Below are positions 51,286-58,421 of a stretch of DNA of 64,000 nucleotides, one piece after another. Numbering within the stretch: position 1 is the first letter of the stretch; the number at the start of each line of letters is the position of its first letter. This stretch comes from Spizellomyces punctatus DAOM BR117 (Eukaryota > Chytridiomycota > Chytridiomycetes > Spizellomycetales > Spizellomycetaceae): contig NW_015971548.1 of assembly GCF_000182565.1 (NCBI RefSeq), positions 364,047 through 428,046 on the forward strand. The letters are read 5' to 3'. Both the position numbers and the translations under genes were made by a program. The notes beneath the pieces were generated by a model. It searched no databases. It was not told where the DNA came from and saw only the letters and a list, made by a program, of their open reading frames with translations.

Positions 51286-52025
51286 ACATAGTGTGGAGGC
51301 GATTGAAAATGGCACTAGGACCCATTATTATCCGGATTAATCCGGTTAATCATATCGCATAATCAGAACCCCCCTCTATCGCTCTTGGTGTGGCATGCAT
51401 GTAATGTTTTTTTTTAAAATTGCGATGTGGTGCATGCCAAAGGTCTATAAAAGGGGGGCCTTTTCCCTCTTTCCTCTTTACCCATCCTCGACTCTCAAAG
51501 CATCTGCACAAATGCTCATTGCGACCCACATTGCAACTCATTGCGACTCGGTCAACCATGAGAATGCCGATGTGGTGGTGTCGAGGACCTCGACCACCCA
51601 ACAGCAACCGTGATCAGAACCAGTGGCAACCAATCGGATCCGATAACAGAACCTACTATTACGCTGCCACATTAGTTGAGCTTGGTTGGTATGTATCGAT
51701 GGCATTTCTTGCATTTCTTGTCATCGGGTCATCTTCTGACATGCAGTTTTTTTCTCTAGTCTCCAAGCCTTGTCACTGAAGATCCTCCAGCTTACGAGTC
51801 TCCCCAATATTGTGAAGACTCTGGCTTCAATGCCATCAAGAGTTCTGGATCAAGGCCTAGTAGGGACTGCGTGTGGTGGTGGGCAGTTATCCGGTTAGAA
51901 CAACCGTTACGTATTGCGTGTATAATTGCCTAGTAGTAGTTAGTTAGCTTTTCCGAACCAGTTGTCGCCGGTTTATTCCCTGGTGTAGTAGCTAGTGCCA
52001 GTTTCTGTCACCTAATACACTATGT
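51286..52025 (+). mobile_element. Non-autonomous transposon-like element related to the Fanzor element
   Basis: A 740-bp unit bounded by inverted termini: ACATAGTGTGG at 51286 and its inverse CACTATGT ending at 52025, with inner matches GGCACTAG/CTAGTGCC. Taking CATAG/CTATG as the true tips, both sides are flanked by TA, a target duplication. The ends match those of the Fanzor element at 54717-56875 in their outer 8 and inner 8 bases. The 3' block (51938-52000) matches the Fanzor element's in about 53 of 65 hand-aligned columns. No nuclease gene is inside. Internal features are a perfect 14-bp palindrome (CCGGATTAATCCGG, 51332-51345), a TATA box (TATAAAA, 51445-51451) and a short possible spliced frame starting MRMPMWWC near 51559 with a GTATGT...CTCTAG intron. 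Confidence 0.75.
51938..52025 (+). ncRNA. Putative guide (omega) RNA scaffold of the non-autonomous element
   Basis: The sequence from 51938 to the right end resembles the region after the Fanzor stop codon at 56789-56875, sharing TTTTCCGA, GTTGTCGC, TCCCTGGTG and GCTAGTGCCA in the same order and spacing. In OMEGA systems this position encodes the guide-RNA scaffold, and the guide reads into the flanking DNA beyond the right end. Transcription and function are inference. Confidence 0.35.
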
Positions 52026-53994: not shown

Positions 53995-54076
53995 CGACAC
54001 GAGCAGGATTTGAACCTGCGCGGGCAGAGCCCAATAGATTTCTAGTCTATCGCCTTAACCACTCGGCCATCGTGTC
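53995..54076 (-). tRNA. tRNA-Ser(AGA)
   Basis: 82 nt on the minus strand with a class II cloverleaf. The acceptor stem is GACACGA/TCGTGTC, the D arm begins TGGCCGAGTGGTTAAGGC, the anticodon stem ATAGA/TCTAT has loop CTAGAAA and anticodon AGA (complement of 54041-54043). A long variable arm (TGGGCTCTGCCCGC) and T arm CAGG-TTCAAAT-CCTG follow. No intron. T-rich sequence lies on its 3' side near 53966-53972. Confidence 0.96.
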
Positions 54077-54716
54077 AGGTGAATGACAGAACAGGTATTT
54101 GCAATATATTCCTTGTGATATTCTATGCTCATCTGCTTCCCAGAGGCTGGCTCTAGGTAAGGCTCGTTGCAAGGAAAATTGTCGTGGCTGTAAGTTGACA
54201 TGAAGGAGTATGAAATCGCACTTTCGGGCGTTGCAGATACATTGTTGATATTGGCACTTCTCACATGTCGCCATTATCAACTATTATCATAGATGTGAAA
54301 GCAATGTTCGCATAGAAGGAGGACAGTAAAAGCAAGAATGAGCCACCTCGGTGCTAGCAGATCTGCCTCTCGTTTGGAGCACGATATATGCTCTATGAAA
54401 TTATGGCTTCATGTTTTTGAGACGAGCCTTAGACGTTGCGAGAAAGCCATGCTGAAAGACAGACTCCAATTTAGTTGACACTTGATCGAAAGCATAAGAC
54501 ATGGTAGATTTCATTGATGATTCGGATGATTTGGAGCCAATTATGTTGAAGTTATTAATTGGCATTAGCTCCGTCCATCCAGGATACATTGATGATGTCC
54601 ATGAACTTTGGAGAATAGGTTCAGCACCTTTTCTGATGGTTTTGTGTTAAAGAAAGTACGCAGTTACTTGCCGATGCTTCATGGGAACAAGATTTGGCCC
54701 AGTTCTCAACCCTTGT
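54077..54716. other. Intergenic DNA left of the Fanzor element
   Basis: No gene I can support. The element's left inverted repeat begins at 54717. Confidence 0.5.
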
Positions 54717-54882
54717 ACATAGTGCGGAGCCGATGGGTATTGGCACTAGTACAAAGATTCCAACCAATTTAATCATAATTTTACTCGATTTAGACTCATG
54801 AACTATGGTTTGATCCAAAAAGTCCTATATAAGTTGTCGGGCCCATTTTCCCAGGCTTTCGTCTTTTTCCACAGATATCATC

Positions 54883-56783
54883 ATGCCACCAAAGAAAAAG
54901 CAAAAACTCGAAAAACTCGACAAACCTACTTGCTTACATACCTGCAACAAGACTTCCTTTGCAAAAGCTTTCCTGCCAAACGAGATCTACCGCCAACGGC
55001 TTCTAGATTACATTGCCATGATCCATCAACTTGCTGACCATGCTTCCCACACTCTCAAATTCTACATCCTATCTGCACCATCCTTCACCGTAAACGAGGA
55101 GACCATCGAAGCAATTCTCTATCTTCTCAACAAAGGAGAGGCTTGGCAACCAAAAACTGATGCGAAAAGGGCATTGCGCGAATGCTTGCTGCCCTATGTC
55201 CGACGGTACTGCCACATCGTCGGCTTCGTTCATCCAAATCTACAAAAAGAGCAGCAATCAGTCAATTACCTGACAATGAGTATGATGACGAACCTGAAAG
55301 TCAACGTCCAAGAGCATTTCATGCAGATGATCCTTCGGTATATCAATCTGCGGCTTGACGTGAAGGGACGGAAAGGGCAATTTCCTCCAAAGAGTGAAGC
55401 GCGAAAAGCTTTCTTTGCTCGGCTACGCTACTTGAAGTCAGTTTTCCTTTTCGAAACAATGCCAGAATCGCTGGATGACTTGAGCATTCTTGAAAACGAG
55501 ATTTTAGAAGAGATCTGGACACTTAACCTGCCATTTCCTGATCAAGACAAGCCGCTTGCCTACCTCATTGCCATCGACGCGATGTCCTTCTTGCCTGCAT
55601 ACTGCAAACTCTCCCGCTCTATGAGCATCATGGATTTCGATGGTTTAGCGCCATACCTCTTCGCCGCTCCCTCATCCAAAGCCATATACGCATTGACACC
55701 GTCATCCTCTATTCTCATGTTCTTTGCATCCCCCGCAGACGCAGAGAGGCAGAAGCCATAGAGAAGGATGATCTGTGGTTGCGTGTCTGTAATCTACGTA
55801 CCAAAGCTTTTCAGTCTCGCCGCAGTATGCAGTTTGAAGGCTCGATCACGACGGACGGAACCTCGGTGTCTGTATACCTAAAGCACCCCGAAGCAGACAA
55901 GTATGGAAAGCGCGGAGCGAGAAAGTCAGCAAAGACTCTAGAAGCTGAGGTGAAGGCAGTATATGTGGAGAACAACTTGCCTGCTTGTCGAGCAGCAGAA
56001 AATGTCGTCATTATTGACCCAAACAAGCGCGACCTTCTCTACTGCCAAGACAGCAATGGTGCGACGATGTTTCACTATACCGCCAATCAACGCTGCAAGG
56101 AGACTGGTAGCCGGCGATTTGCAAAGGAACGGCAGCAGATGAAGAAGGAAGCGGGAATGGACCTTATAGAATCGCGAATACCATCTCACAAGACGATGAA
56201 CCTCATGGATTTCCTCCGCTACCTCCTCGTCCGTTGTGTCGACTGGAACCGCCGCAAGGACTTCTATTCGCATCCTGCTCATACTCGATGGAAATGGCAC
56301 TCCTTCATAAACCGTCAGAAGAGCGAATCAGACCTCATAAGTAACATGCGCAACAAGTACAGTGAAAACCTTACTGTTGTAATGGGTGATTGGAGCGATG
56401 CCGGTCGAACTGCAAGATTTCAGACCTCATCAAAGACAAAAGGCTGGCGCACCCTCTTTAAGCGCAACCGCATTGATTGTTTCCTTCTCGACGAGTACAA
56501 GACCTCATCTGTTTGCCCTCGCTGTTCCTCATCTGAGTTTGTGGAGAAAAAATTCAAAGAACGACCTCATTCAAGACCTTATCGACAACGAGAAGGCAAG
56601 ATTGAAAAAGTCCACGGATTGCTGGGTTGTACCAACCCTAACTGTTTGCAGCAAGCCTGGACGATGCGCTACTGGAATCGAGATACGCTGAGCACCTGCA
56701 ATATGCTAACGATCGTGCAATCAATGTTGGATGGACACGGTAGACCAGAAGTGTTCAGCAGGAGTGTTCCAGCCGTAGCTTAG
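54883..56783 (+). CDS. Fanzor (eukaryotic TnpB/OMEGA) RNA-guided DNA endonuclease, frame change near 55.6 kb
   Basis: The protein starts MPPKKKQK, a likely nuclear signal, and the N-terminal half is helical and basic. The C-terminal half is a RuvC nuclease: VVIIDPN (first Asp, codon 56016), LLDEYKTSSVCPRC (Glu, codon 56493), a zinc ribbon closing at GCTNPNC, and WNRDTLST (last Asp, codon 56682). All three acidic residues are kept. The family block IPLRRSLIQSHIRIDT lies in a different frame from the upstream part. Reading passes from frame 1 to frame 0 near 55636-55641, as after loss of one base, giving about 633 residues. Alternatively a 65-nt intron (55584-55648, GTCCTT...TTTAG) restores phase and gives 611. 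The intron size suits this genome but its donor is weak, and it would remove a coding-like stretch. Activity is therefore uncertain. Confidence 0.88.
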
Positions 56784-56788
56784 ATTGG

Positions 56789-56875
56789 TTAGATTAGGTT
56801 TTCCGAGCCGGTTGTCGCGCGGTTCAATCCCTGGTGCGGGTGCTAGTGCCAATACCCACCGGCTCCGCACTATGT
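56789..56875 (+). ncRNA. Putative Fanzor guide (omega) RNA scaffold at the right end
   Basis: The block runs from just after the Fanzor stop to the right end of the element. It resembles the 3' block of the nuclease-free element nearby, although neither encodes protein there. GGTGCGGGT (from 56833) can pair with ACCCACC (near 56854-56860) around the start of the inverted repeat; the outer GGTG/CACC pairing is kept in the other element. In characterised Fanzor loci the guide RNA scaffold maps to this place. Expression is inferred. Confidence 0.5.
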
Positions 56876-57110
56876 TACCAAGTCTGTATAACAAGAAGTC
56901 ACTGGATGCAACTTTGGGGTCGACTATTGAGCCGTCAATTTACGCGGTGACATGGTAGAAAAGCATTGATAACTTAAACTATCACCATGCAATAAGTCTT
57001 GCGACAATGGTTAACCTTTAACACGCTCTATGTAGAATATCTATTAAATGCCAGCAATCTGCAGCATAGGTTGGAGAACTTAATGATAGGAACTTTCAAC
57101 GCTCAAAGTA

Positions 57111-57935
57111 CTATGATTGACTTCCTTCCATCGCATCACCACCAAAAAACCTCTCCCACACGCGTCTCGCACCCATTCTTGCCCGATCAAACAGAGCAGA
57201 TGGGCTATCCAAAGCAGGCCTTACATCCACATTGAAGGCAGGAACACCCGGCGCTTCATCGGGGGCAGAGTAGTAGTCAATGACGTAGCGCACTTGCTGT
57301 CCGCAGCGATCAACCGTCCAATCGTGGCGATCAAAGGGCTTGTCCACTCTGGAAGAAAACGCTAATTAGGGCTACAAAGACACCAACAGCAGATGACATG
57401 TACAGATAACATACCCAAACCAGCTGTACATCCTTGCCTTAGGTGTCAGGTCCTGCGGTCTACCCTGAAACTTTGCCAACTTGACATCCTTGCAGTCACA
57501 GTGAAACATTTTTTCCCACTTGAGGACCTCCCCCCAGCAAGCCTCGTTTAAAAAGTTATGAATATCAACCATGGTAGGAATCTCATGTTCCGGGGTTTCC
57601 CATCCTTTTCGTTTAAGCGCGTTGTAAAACTGTTGTGGGGAAGGGTAGTCCCATGTCTTGTCTTGGACGTCTTGGCGGGGAATGGAGGAGGATGTGCGTT
57701 CGGTGGAGAGGTTGACCGTTTGGCCTTGAGAAGGGGTTTGGGGGAGGTTGGGCATCATATTGAGAGGGTTGATGTGGGAGGAGGTGTGGTCGACAGGGCA
57801 GCCGCCTCCTGAGGAAGAGGCGGAGGTCGACGAAGAGGGTGCTGATCGCTTCCCAGCAATGGACGCAAAAGAAGAGTGGTCAACGGGACATGTACCTCCC
57901 GAAGAGGAGGTTTGAGAATCTGGTGAAGGCGTCAT
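57111..57935 (-). CDS. CYC3: Holocytochrome c synthase (cytochrome c haem lyase)
   Basis: Enzyme of the mitochondrial intermembrane space that attaches haem to apocytochrome c. Two exons (plus coordinates 57111-57348 and 57415-57935) give 252 residues. Two Cys-Pro haem motifs (GGTCPVDH and GGGCPVDH) stand near the N terminus in a Ser-rich region. The conserved core follows: PSPQQFYNALKRKGWETP, VDIHNFLNEACWGEVLKWE, FQGRPQDLTPKARMYSWFG and PFDRHDWTVDRCG with its conserved His, then YVIDYYSA and DVRPALDS. The start (MTPSPDSQ, 57935) is chosen because it precedes the first motif; an in-frame upstream ATG near 58088 would add a hydrophobic leader. It ends 235 bp from the Fanzor element, which has not interrupted it. 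Confidence 0.94.
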
Positions 57936-58421
57936 GACGGAGAACACTAGTCGCAAGGTCACAACAAAGTGCGAATTGAAGACGGGAAGAAAAACAAAAG
58001 ACACGGCAGCGTTAAGCGTGTGCGCAATTGCAGTCGGAGTATTTTTGGGAGGCACAGCCATCTGAAGTAATGTTTGTTGCCATGACACCAACCAAGTGCG
58101 ATTGCCTTGACGGAATCACTCACATATCAGATGCTGTTTTTGTGTTTATCTTCATTCTACAGTCATTGATTTATTCAATTGGCTGCAATGTTACAGGTAT
58201 TGACATTTGGCTTTCTTTGCCATACCATCCCAGTCAGATGCACGGTTAGGGTTTGCAGTTATATCTTAGAAATGTGGTTGGATTAACAGGTTGGAGTGTC
58301 TGGGCAGAGAGTTAAGATACCCGGGATATCTTGCAAGCGAATGAGGGTATTCTCCTTTGGAAGCAATTAAAAGGCAATCTGATGTAGGGCCACCAAATCG
58401 CAACAGCTTATGCTACATATT
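57936..58421. other. Intergenic region
   Basis: Promoter of the haem lyase gene and 3' end of the small gene beyond it. Nothing else seen. Confidence 0.45.

Follow-up and report, generated by a model that had tools for sequence, protein, structure and literature searches.

A frameshifted SpuFz1 paralogue in Spizellomyces punctatus and a candidate transposase for the SPu-1 family

The SPu-1 elements of Spizellomyces punctatus form a published family (PMC3627910; PMC10432273), for which Bao and Jurka proposed TA target duplications (PMC3627910). Saito et al. assigned the catalytic residues of SpuFz1 to D383, E541 and D606, noted a CA before the left repeat and a CATA target-adjacent motif, and saw omegaRNA from four Fanzor loci, among which the element described below is not known to be (PMC10432273). 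The same paper counts 42 Fanzor and 134 ghost loci, and describes ghost omegaRNAs that lack a gene and work with the SpuFz1 protein in human cells. Its authors found no transposase between the SPu-1 repeats, and they left the conservation of the SpuFz1 copies as 'recent duplication or strong selection'.

The element described here lies in a window of 64,000 nucleotides from S. punctatus DAOM BR117 (contig NW_015971548.1, positions 364,047 to 428,046 of the forward strand), by which we mean the whole stretch of DNA that was analysed. Its features are collected in Table 1. The element belongs to the known family and is not a new one. It shares with the published SPu-1 element of SpuFz1 (PMC3627910; PMC10432273; PDB 8GKH) the species, the kind of repeats, the size, the scaffold of the SpuFz1 locus L014 and the CATA at the left, and differs in being frameshifted and mosaic and in having a guide from its own flank. 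Like the ghost Spu-1 elements (PMC10432273), it combines an omegaRNA and repeats with the lack of a usable gene, and has CA before its left end. Unlike them, it does contain a gene, albeit a broken one, and its scaffold is of the Fanzor-locus rather than the ghost type. With the TnpB of IS200/IS605 (OMEGA), it has in common the RuvC nuclease, the guide derived from the right-end flank and the left-end motif, whereas its true inverted repeats and putative TA duplication set it apart. In our overall reading, to which we assign a probability of about 0.85, the window element is a frameshifted SpuFz1 paralogue, the omegaRNA of which would act in trans, in a family that would be moved by a transposase in trans and whose insertions would be favoured by the nuclease.

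Table 1. Features of the window and their positions (position 1 is the first letter of the window)
Feature	Position	Strand	Basis or remark
Ghost SPu-1 element, 734 bp, no Fanzor gene	51289..52022	+	CA before left end at 51287-51288; omegaRNA 51938-52022
CATA, published SpuFz1 target-adjacent motif (PMC10432273)	54718..54721	+	CA belongs to the flank; TA forms bases 1-2 of the left repeat and is the putative target duplication
Left-end inverted repeat, 33 bp	54720..54752	+	repeat matching, family comparison
TATATAAG, TATA-like box	54826..54833	+	sequence; promoter role putative
ORF1, 292 aa, N-terminal half of SpuFz1-like protein	54883..55761	+	frame 1; about 244 first aa homologous, remainder out of frame
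Net -1 frameshift site	55610..55620	+	alignment with seven relatives
ORF2, 334 aa, RuvC and zinc-ribbon half	55779..56783	+	frame 3, different from ORF1
75-nt omegaRNA scaffold, identical to SpuFz1 locus L014	56798..56872	+	sequence comparison; length from PMC10432273
Right-end inverted repeat, 33 bp	56840..56872	+	repeat matching, family comparison
Expected guide, flank-derived	56873..56887	+	position by analogy with PMC10432273

The original prediction was of a complete Fanzor (OMEGA) element. Neither half of its protein matches a Pfam family above cut-off, and the Fanzor identification therefore rests on PDB sequences. A PDB sequence search with ORF2 returned SpuFz1 of PDB 8GKH with an E value of 2.8e-204 and the Parasitella Fanzor 9CF0 with 1.6e-34, so that the predicted identity is upheld with very strong support. 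The element is not complete, however. A Fanzor1 protein of the SPu-1 type is expected to be encoded by a single ORF of about 633-638 aa, and two frames are found instead. Alignment with seven relatives shows that the window copy lacks one position near 55,614, a net -1 change, and that beyond this frameshift it contains a 6-base excess, which is in frame. Frame 1 is open to 55761; homology to SpuFz1 ends at about residue 244 and continues in frame 3. The three RuvC acids and the zinc ribbon that had been predicted are present: the residues matching D383, E541 and D606 of SpuFz1 and four zinc-ribbon cysteines, assigned by motif, are all located in ORF2, which is out of frame with the start. As it stands, the window copy would yield no whole nuclease, and the broken frame predicts no RNA-guided DNA cleavage from this copy alone.

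It could be argued that the window copy is functional and makes a nuclease, either because an error in the assembly has produced the frameshift or because ribosomal frameshifting overcomes it. The copy retains the catalytic residues, its CpG content is undecayed, and both halves, taken singly, are free of stops and have dN/dS values of 0.12-0.23 against four relatives. The shift is, however, absent from all seven aligned relatives, and it is in the 180-base bin starting there (55617-55796) that the best identity to any relative falls to its lowest value, 82%, which is owed in part to the 6-base excess. We consider a functional copy unlikely.

In the same genome, locus L014 (C17:213843-215756) encodes a 638-aa protein that agrees letter for letter with 8GKH over residues 2-638 of the printed alignment. 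The two halves of the window element are 89% (336 columns) and 76% (252 columns) identical to L014, and judging by sequence the element is a paralogue of this characterised SpuFz1 locus. A DNA search of the genome with the window element found at least 102 matching pieces, a lower bound with 40 of 78 candidates scored. Over the aligned part, 39 other main copies are 81-89% identical to the window element, and the family comprises at least 40 copies. At the protein level, at least 71 matches were found (70 of 80 candidates scored), of which 12, the query's own copy among them, span residues 1-632 without stops.

Selection was assessed on 12 open frames of at least 600 codons in the fetched loci, which include L020, a copy without a normal C-terminus. 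Across their 66 pairs, the median dN is 0.083, the median dS 0.500 and the median dN/dS 0.157 (range 0.113-0.312). These figures argue for purifying selection on an old family. The repeat ends, by comparison, are near-identical among copies whose open genes differ at a median dS of 0.50. Ends that are conserved across a diverged family do not date movement, and the recent movement that had been read from the near-identical ends of the window element is therefore unsupported.

In a comparison by 180-base bins, the window copy is 98.9-99.4% identical to L002 in its first 180 and last 719 bases, and between those parts its nearest relative is L004, L036, L020, L003 or L042, depending on the bin. 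The window copy is thus a mosaic to which several paralogues correspond in turn, and this suggests gene conversion among SPu-1 copies.

Many copies carry in-frame stops. In the alignment to the L014 gene, 50 of 53 such stops are TGA, and 46 of these coincide with a CGN codon of L014 (counts without L014, which served as the reference, and without L047, L058 and L060). The observed/expected ratio of CpG is 0.26-0.55 in the four copies with at least four TGA stops, 0.47-0.92 in copies with two, and 0.93-1.07 in the 12 open frames of the dN/dS set; at 0.94, the window copy exhibits no such decay. According to a 2025 paper, 5mC in Spizellomyces is confined to transposons (PMC12695648), and deamination driven by methylation would hence explain both the TGA stops at former CGN codons and the loss of CpG. 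The decayed Fanzor copies L024, L025, L026, L029, L034, L037, L039 and L054 have CpG ratios of 0.26-0.55, and their stops, all of them TGA, stand in most cases where a CGN codon used to be. A pair of Fanzor copies lying 5 kb apart, C9:617499-619385 and C9:622459-624345, is more distant, with 61% and 58% identity to the query and 1 and 5 stops; they are perhaps members of a second Fanzor subfamily. Finally, the Fanzor copies L042, L043, L045, L048 and L056 are broken up or flanked by long open frames of 414 to 2,528 codons, which are probably the Gypsy-type retroelements that are mentioned by Saito et al. (PMC10432273).

The matched terminal inverted repeats of the original prediction are real: the arms at 54717-54752 and 56840-56875 pair in inverted orientation at 34 of 36 positions. 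Family comparison narrows the repeat itself to 33 bp, from TAGTG (54720) to CACTA (56872), of which 31 positions match; the outer ACA/TGT match of the arms is not shared by the family as a whole. Outside the family repeat, CA stands before the left end, and the right flank changes from copy to copy. In the aligned copies, TA is found at both ends of the repeat, where it would be a putative target duplication. The similarity of the ends goes beyond chance, since a genome search with the first 14 bases of the element end gave 63 matches, versus 1 for the reversed control. The TATA box also stood up to comparison, with TATAWA present 20-80 bases before the start in 24 of the 32 copies that have a recognisable start. 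Besides the two main frames, the interior of the window element contains no ORF longer than 120 aa, and so, as had been stated, no transposase is seen inside.

The window copy and L014 are the same over the last 85 bases before the right end, a stretch that includes the 75-nt scaffold, and farther upstream they differ at 6 of 100 and 26 of 120 bases (ungapped). The arrangement of the sequence is that of an OMEGA system, with a scaffold that ends at the right end and a guide that would be derived from the flank. The region 56.6-56.95 kb, in which a small RNA had been anticipated, indeed holds a predicted omegaRNA (56798-56872) plus guide. With a covariance model made from 36 Fanzor right ends, the window copy included, the window omegaRNA scores 109.1 bits. 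The counts of Fanzor right ends given below leave out L058 and L060, which are repeats of other loci. Folded as a single sequence, scaffold and guide stay within the ordinary range (z -1.12; 29 of 200 shuffles do as well), and no base pair in the alignment of the 36 right ends is changed on both sides. In view of this lack of a fold or covariation signal, the RNA structure is taken from published cryo-EM work. Rfam reported only a tRNA at gathering threshold over 54000-58000, and nothing over 56700-56960 but an lncRNA match at chance level (E 2.2) on the opposite strand.

With respect to its target, the window guide is most closely matched at home. With up to 2 mismatches, CATA plus guide has no genome match besides its own locus, which carries ACTA where CATA would precede the guide. 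With up to 3 mismatches, there are 9 genome matches, against 9 for the reversed control, and the best is again the own locus. Since ghost omegaRNAs without a gene work, a copy with a broken gene could in principle donate guides. In view of the scaffold identity with the SpuFz1 locus, the window copy, if active, most likely gives its guide in trans.

A ghost element is also present in the window, 2.7 kb from the Fanzor copy and in the same orientation. Its omegaRNA scores 50.8 bits (E 5.5e-13) with the covariance model from Fanzor right ends. A genome search with the core omegaRNA pattern gave 188 matches, versus 9 for the reversed control, a number of the order of the published Fanzor and ghost loci combined (PMC10432273). 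For comparisons, we used 20 of the 188, namely the first perfect non-Fanzor ones among the first 100 matches listed.

The scaffold contains GGTTCAATCCC at 56821-56831, which we take to be the Pol III B box consensus. Transcription of the omegaRNA by RNA polymerase III from this internal box would agree with the recurrence of the box, which 31 of the 36 Fanzor right ends contain, and with four occurrences of the consensus in the window, three of them in tRNA genes, where 0.45 would be expected. None of the 20 ghosts has the box, however, and an A box 25-70 bases upstream is found in only 16 of the 36 Fanzor right ends and is absent at L014. The Pol III promoter was therefore set aside, and we retain it as a highly improbable alternative.

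The CA at the left end is rarely mirrored on the right. Among unique loci, CA precedes the left repeat in 31 of the 34 Fanzor ends and in all 18 ends from ghosts (49/52), and the mirror-image TG follows the right repeat at 5 of 36 Fanzor and 1 of 20 ghost ends (6/56); the background of CA before TA in the window is 0.079 (450/5,698). Loci L047, L058 and L060 are excluded from these counts, L062 and L068, two ghosts in which no left end can be recognised, from those of left ends, and the ghost of the window lies outside the ghost counts. In the Fanzor copy and in the ghost of the window, the CA before the left end is accompanied by a TG after the right one, which counts against our overall reading.

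As the inverted repeats are near-identical, one would expect CA on either flank if it came from a transposase with a preference for CATA. The guide, in contrast, comes from the right flank, and the motif is needed on the left, so that the bias is in keeping with a constraint from the nuclease. The one-sided CA thus fits the CATA motif of the nuclease better than a symmetric transposase. The alternative that CA is part of the element, or reflects a target preference of the transposase, and is not imposed by the nuclease, has in our estimate only a little less than an even chance. The conservation of CA is close to that of the repeat, and all three exceptions among the 52 left ends are TA, as C-to-T decay would give. 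The search for empty sites gave none: joined flanks from ten Fanzor copies had 20 matches in the genome, each of them to its own locus, and no empty site for eleven other Fanzor flank pairs (including that of L011, a rearranged locus whose two ends are no true pair) and 18 ghost pairs was present among the fetched loci and the window. Against this alternative speaks, apart from the one-sidedness, that the element of the candidate transposase described below has AT before it at both ends, although this is one element. According to a related proposal in the literature, the target duplication becomes part of the scaffold of Fanzor1 guide RNAs (PMC10711439).

The dependence on a transposase in trans that had been suggested for the window element remains plausible, and a candidate was found on C3. 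PF13358 (DDE_3) has two matches in the genome, one in an open frame and one in a fragment with a stop. The open frame (408 codons, C3:533347-534570) encodes a protein with HTH_23 and DDE_3 domains above cut-off, and with the acids D160, D240 and E285 (numbered in a 354-residue frame and assigned by motif). In these respects it is like the Tc1/mariner-IS630 transposases (PF13358 DDE_3), and unlike them in the 44 residues that separate its second D from the E. The databases contain 39 relatives with 37-70% identity, two of which come with organism names, Phlyctochytrium arcticum and Lobulomyces angularis, both chytrids; IMG/VR contains no relative. Among the titles listed in literature searches, with most subscription papers and preprints outside their range, none concerns an SPu-1 transposase.

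The C3 transposase sits in a 3.0-kb element (C3:531540-534565), which is single-copy: its 27-base ends, searched with up to 3 mismatches, gave 2 matches, inverted, and the control 0. In end-anchored, ungapped comparisons over 31 positions, the two C3 ends share 20 and 21 positions with the left end of Fanzor elements and 23 and 22 with that of ghosts; between the left ends of Fanzor elements and ghosts, 23 positions are shared. Two inverted ghosts flank the C3 element at distances of about 660 and 170 bases (L081 with L073 and L074; C3:530112-535504). On this basis, the C3 element is a candidate mover of the SPu-1 family.

We give even odds to the opposite view, that the C3 transposase is unrelated to SPu-1 and that a lost transposase or another route, for example single-strand peel-and-paste, moved the elements. 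The C3 ends are related to the SPu-1 ends, not identical, the element is single-copy, and its putative duplication is unequal, TA at one end and TT at the other. Four further transposase fragments are present in the genome, and neither of the two that were inspected has matching ends: C5:992487, the PF13358 fragment, which is also unmatched by tblastn with the C3 transposase, and C2:1364099, which is 47% identical to it (the others are C1:957512 and C7:161322). That Saito et al. found no transposase between the SPu-1 repeats (PMC10432273) points in the same direction. However, once the four known element ends are set aside, none of 127,114 positions in the window reaches the end similarities of the C3 element (maxima 19 and 20), and beyond TAGTG only 1 to 61 of 100,000 shuffles do; the placement between two inverted ghosts likewise speaks for a connection. 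PF03184 and PF01359 have no match in the genome, but they also have none in 14 control genomes, so their absence is not established.

From left to right, the window element consists of CATA overlapping the left end, the left repeat, a broken Fanzor gene, a scaffold identical to that of L014 and the right repeat. If transcribed, its omegaRNA would load into SpuFz1 proteins from intact copies elsewhere. The loaded SpuFz1 would be aimed at CATA and the 15 nt to the right of the element, which together are the sequence of the empty site if CA preceded the insertion. A transposase acting in trans would move the elements of the family, and RNA-guided cutting of empty sites would favour keeping or regaining insertions after CATA. 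A bolder version is offered only tentatively, as the less probable case: the transposase of C3:531540-534565 would have moved both Fanzor elements and ghosts, and the one-sided CATA would be a footprint left in nature by the cutting activity of Fanzor. Insertions would then have occurred at any TA and in either orientation, and would have multiplied or survived only where the sequence on the left allowed cutting of the empty allele.

The window copy is one among the copies of the founding Fanzor family, and the points worth following are the transposase candidate and the one-sided CA. The evidence for selection on an old family bears on the choice that Saito et al. left between recent duplication and selection, and a testable candidate for the SPu-1 transposase now exists, where they found none (PMC10432273). 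Finally, the one-sided CATA offers a way to ask whether cutting by Fanzor has shaped the persistence of the elements, and thus bears on the role of Fanzor in its host.
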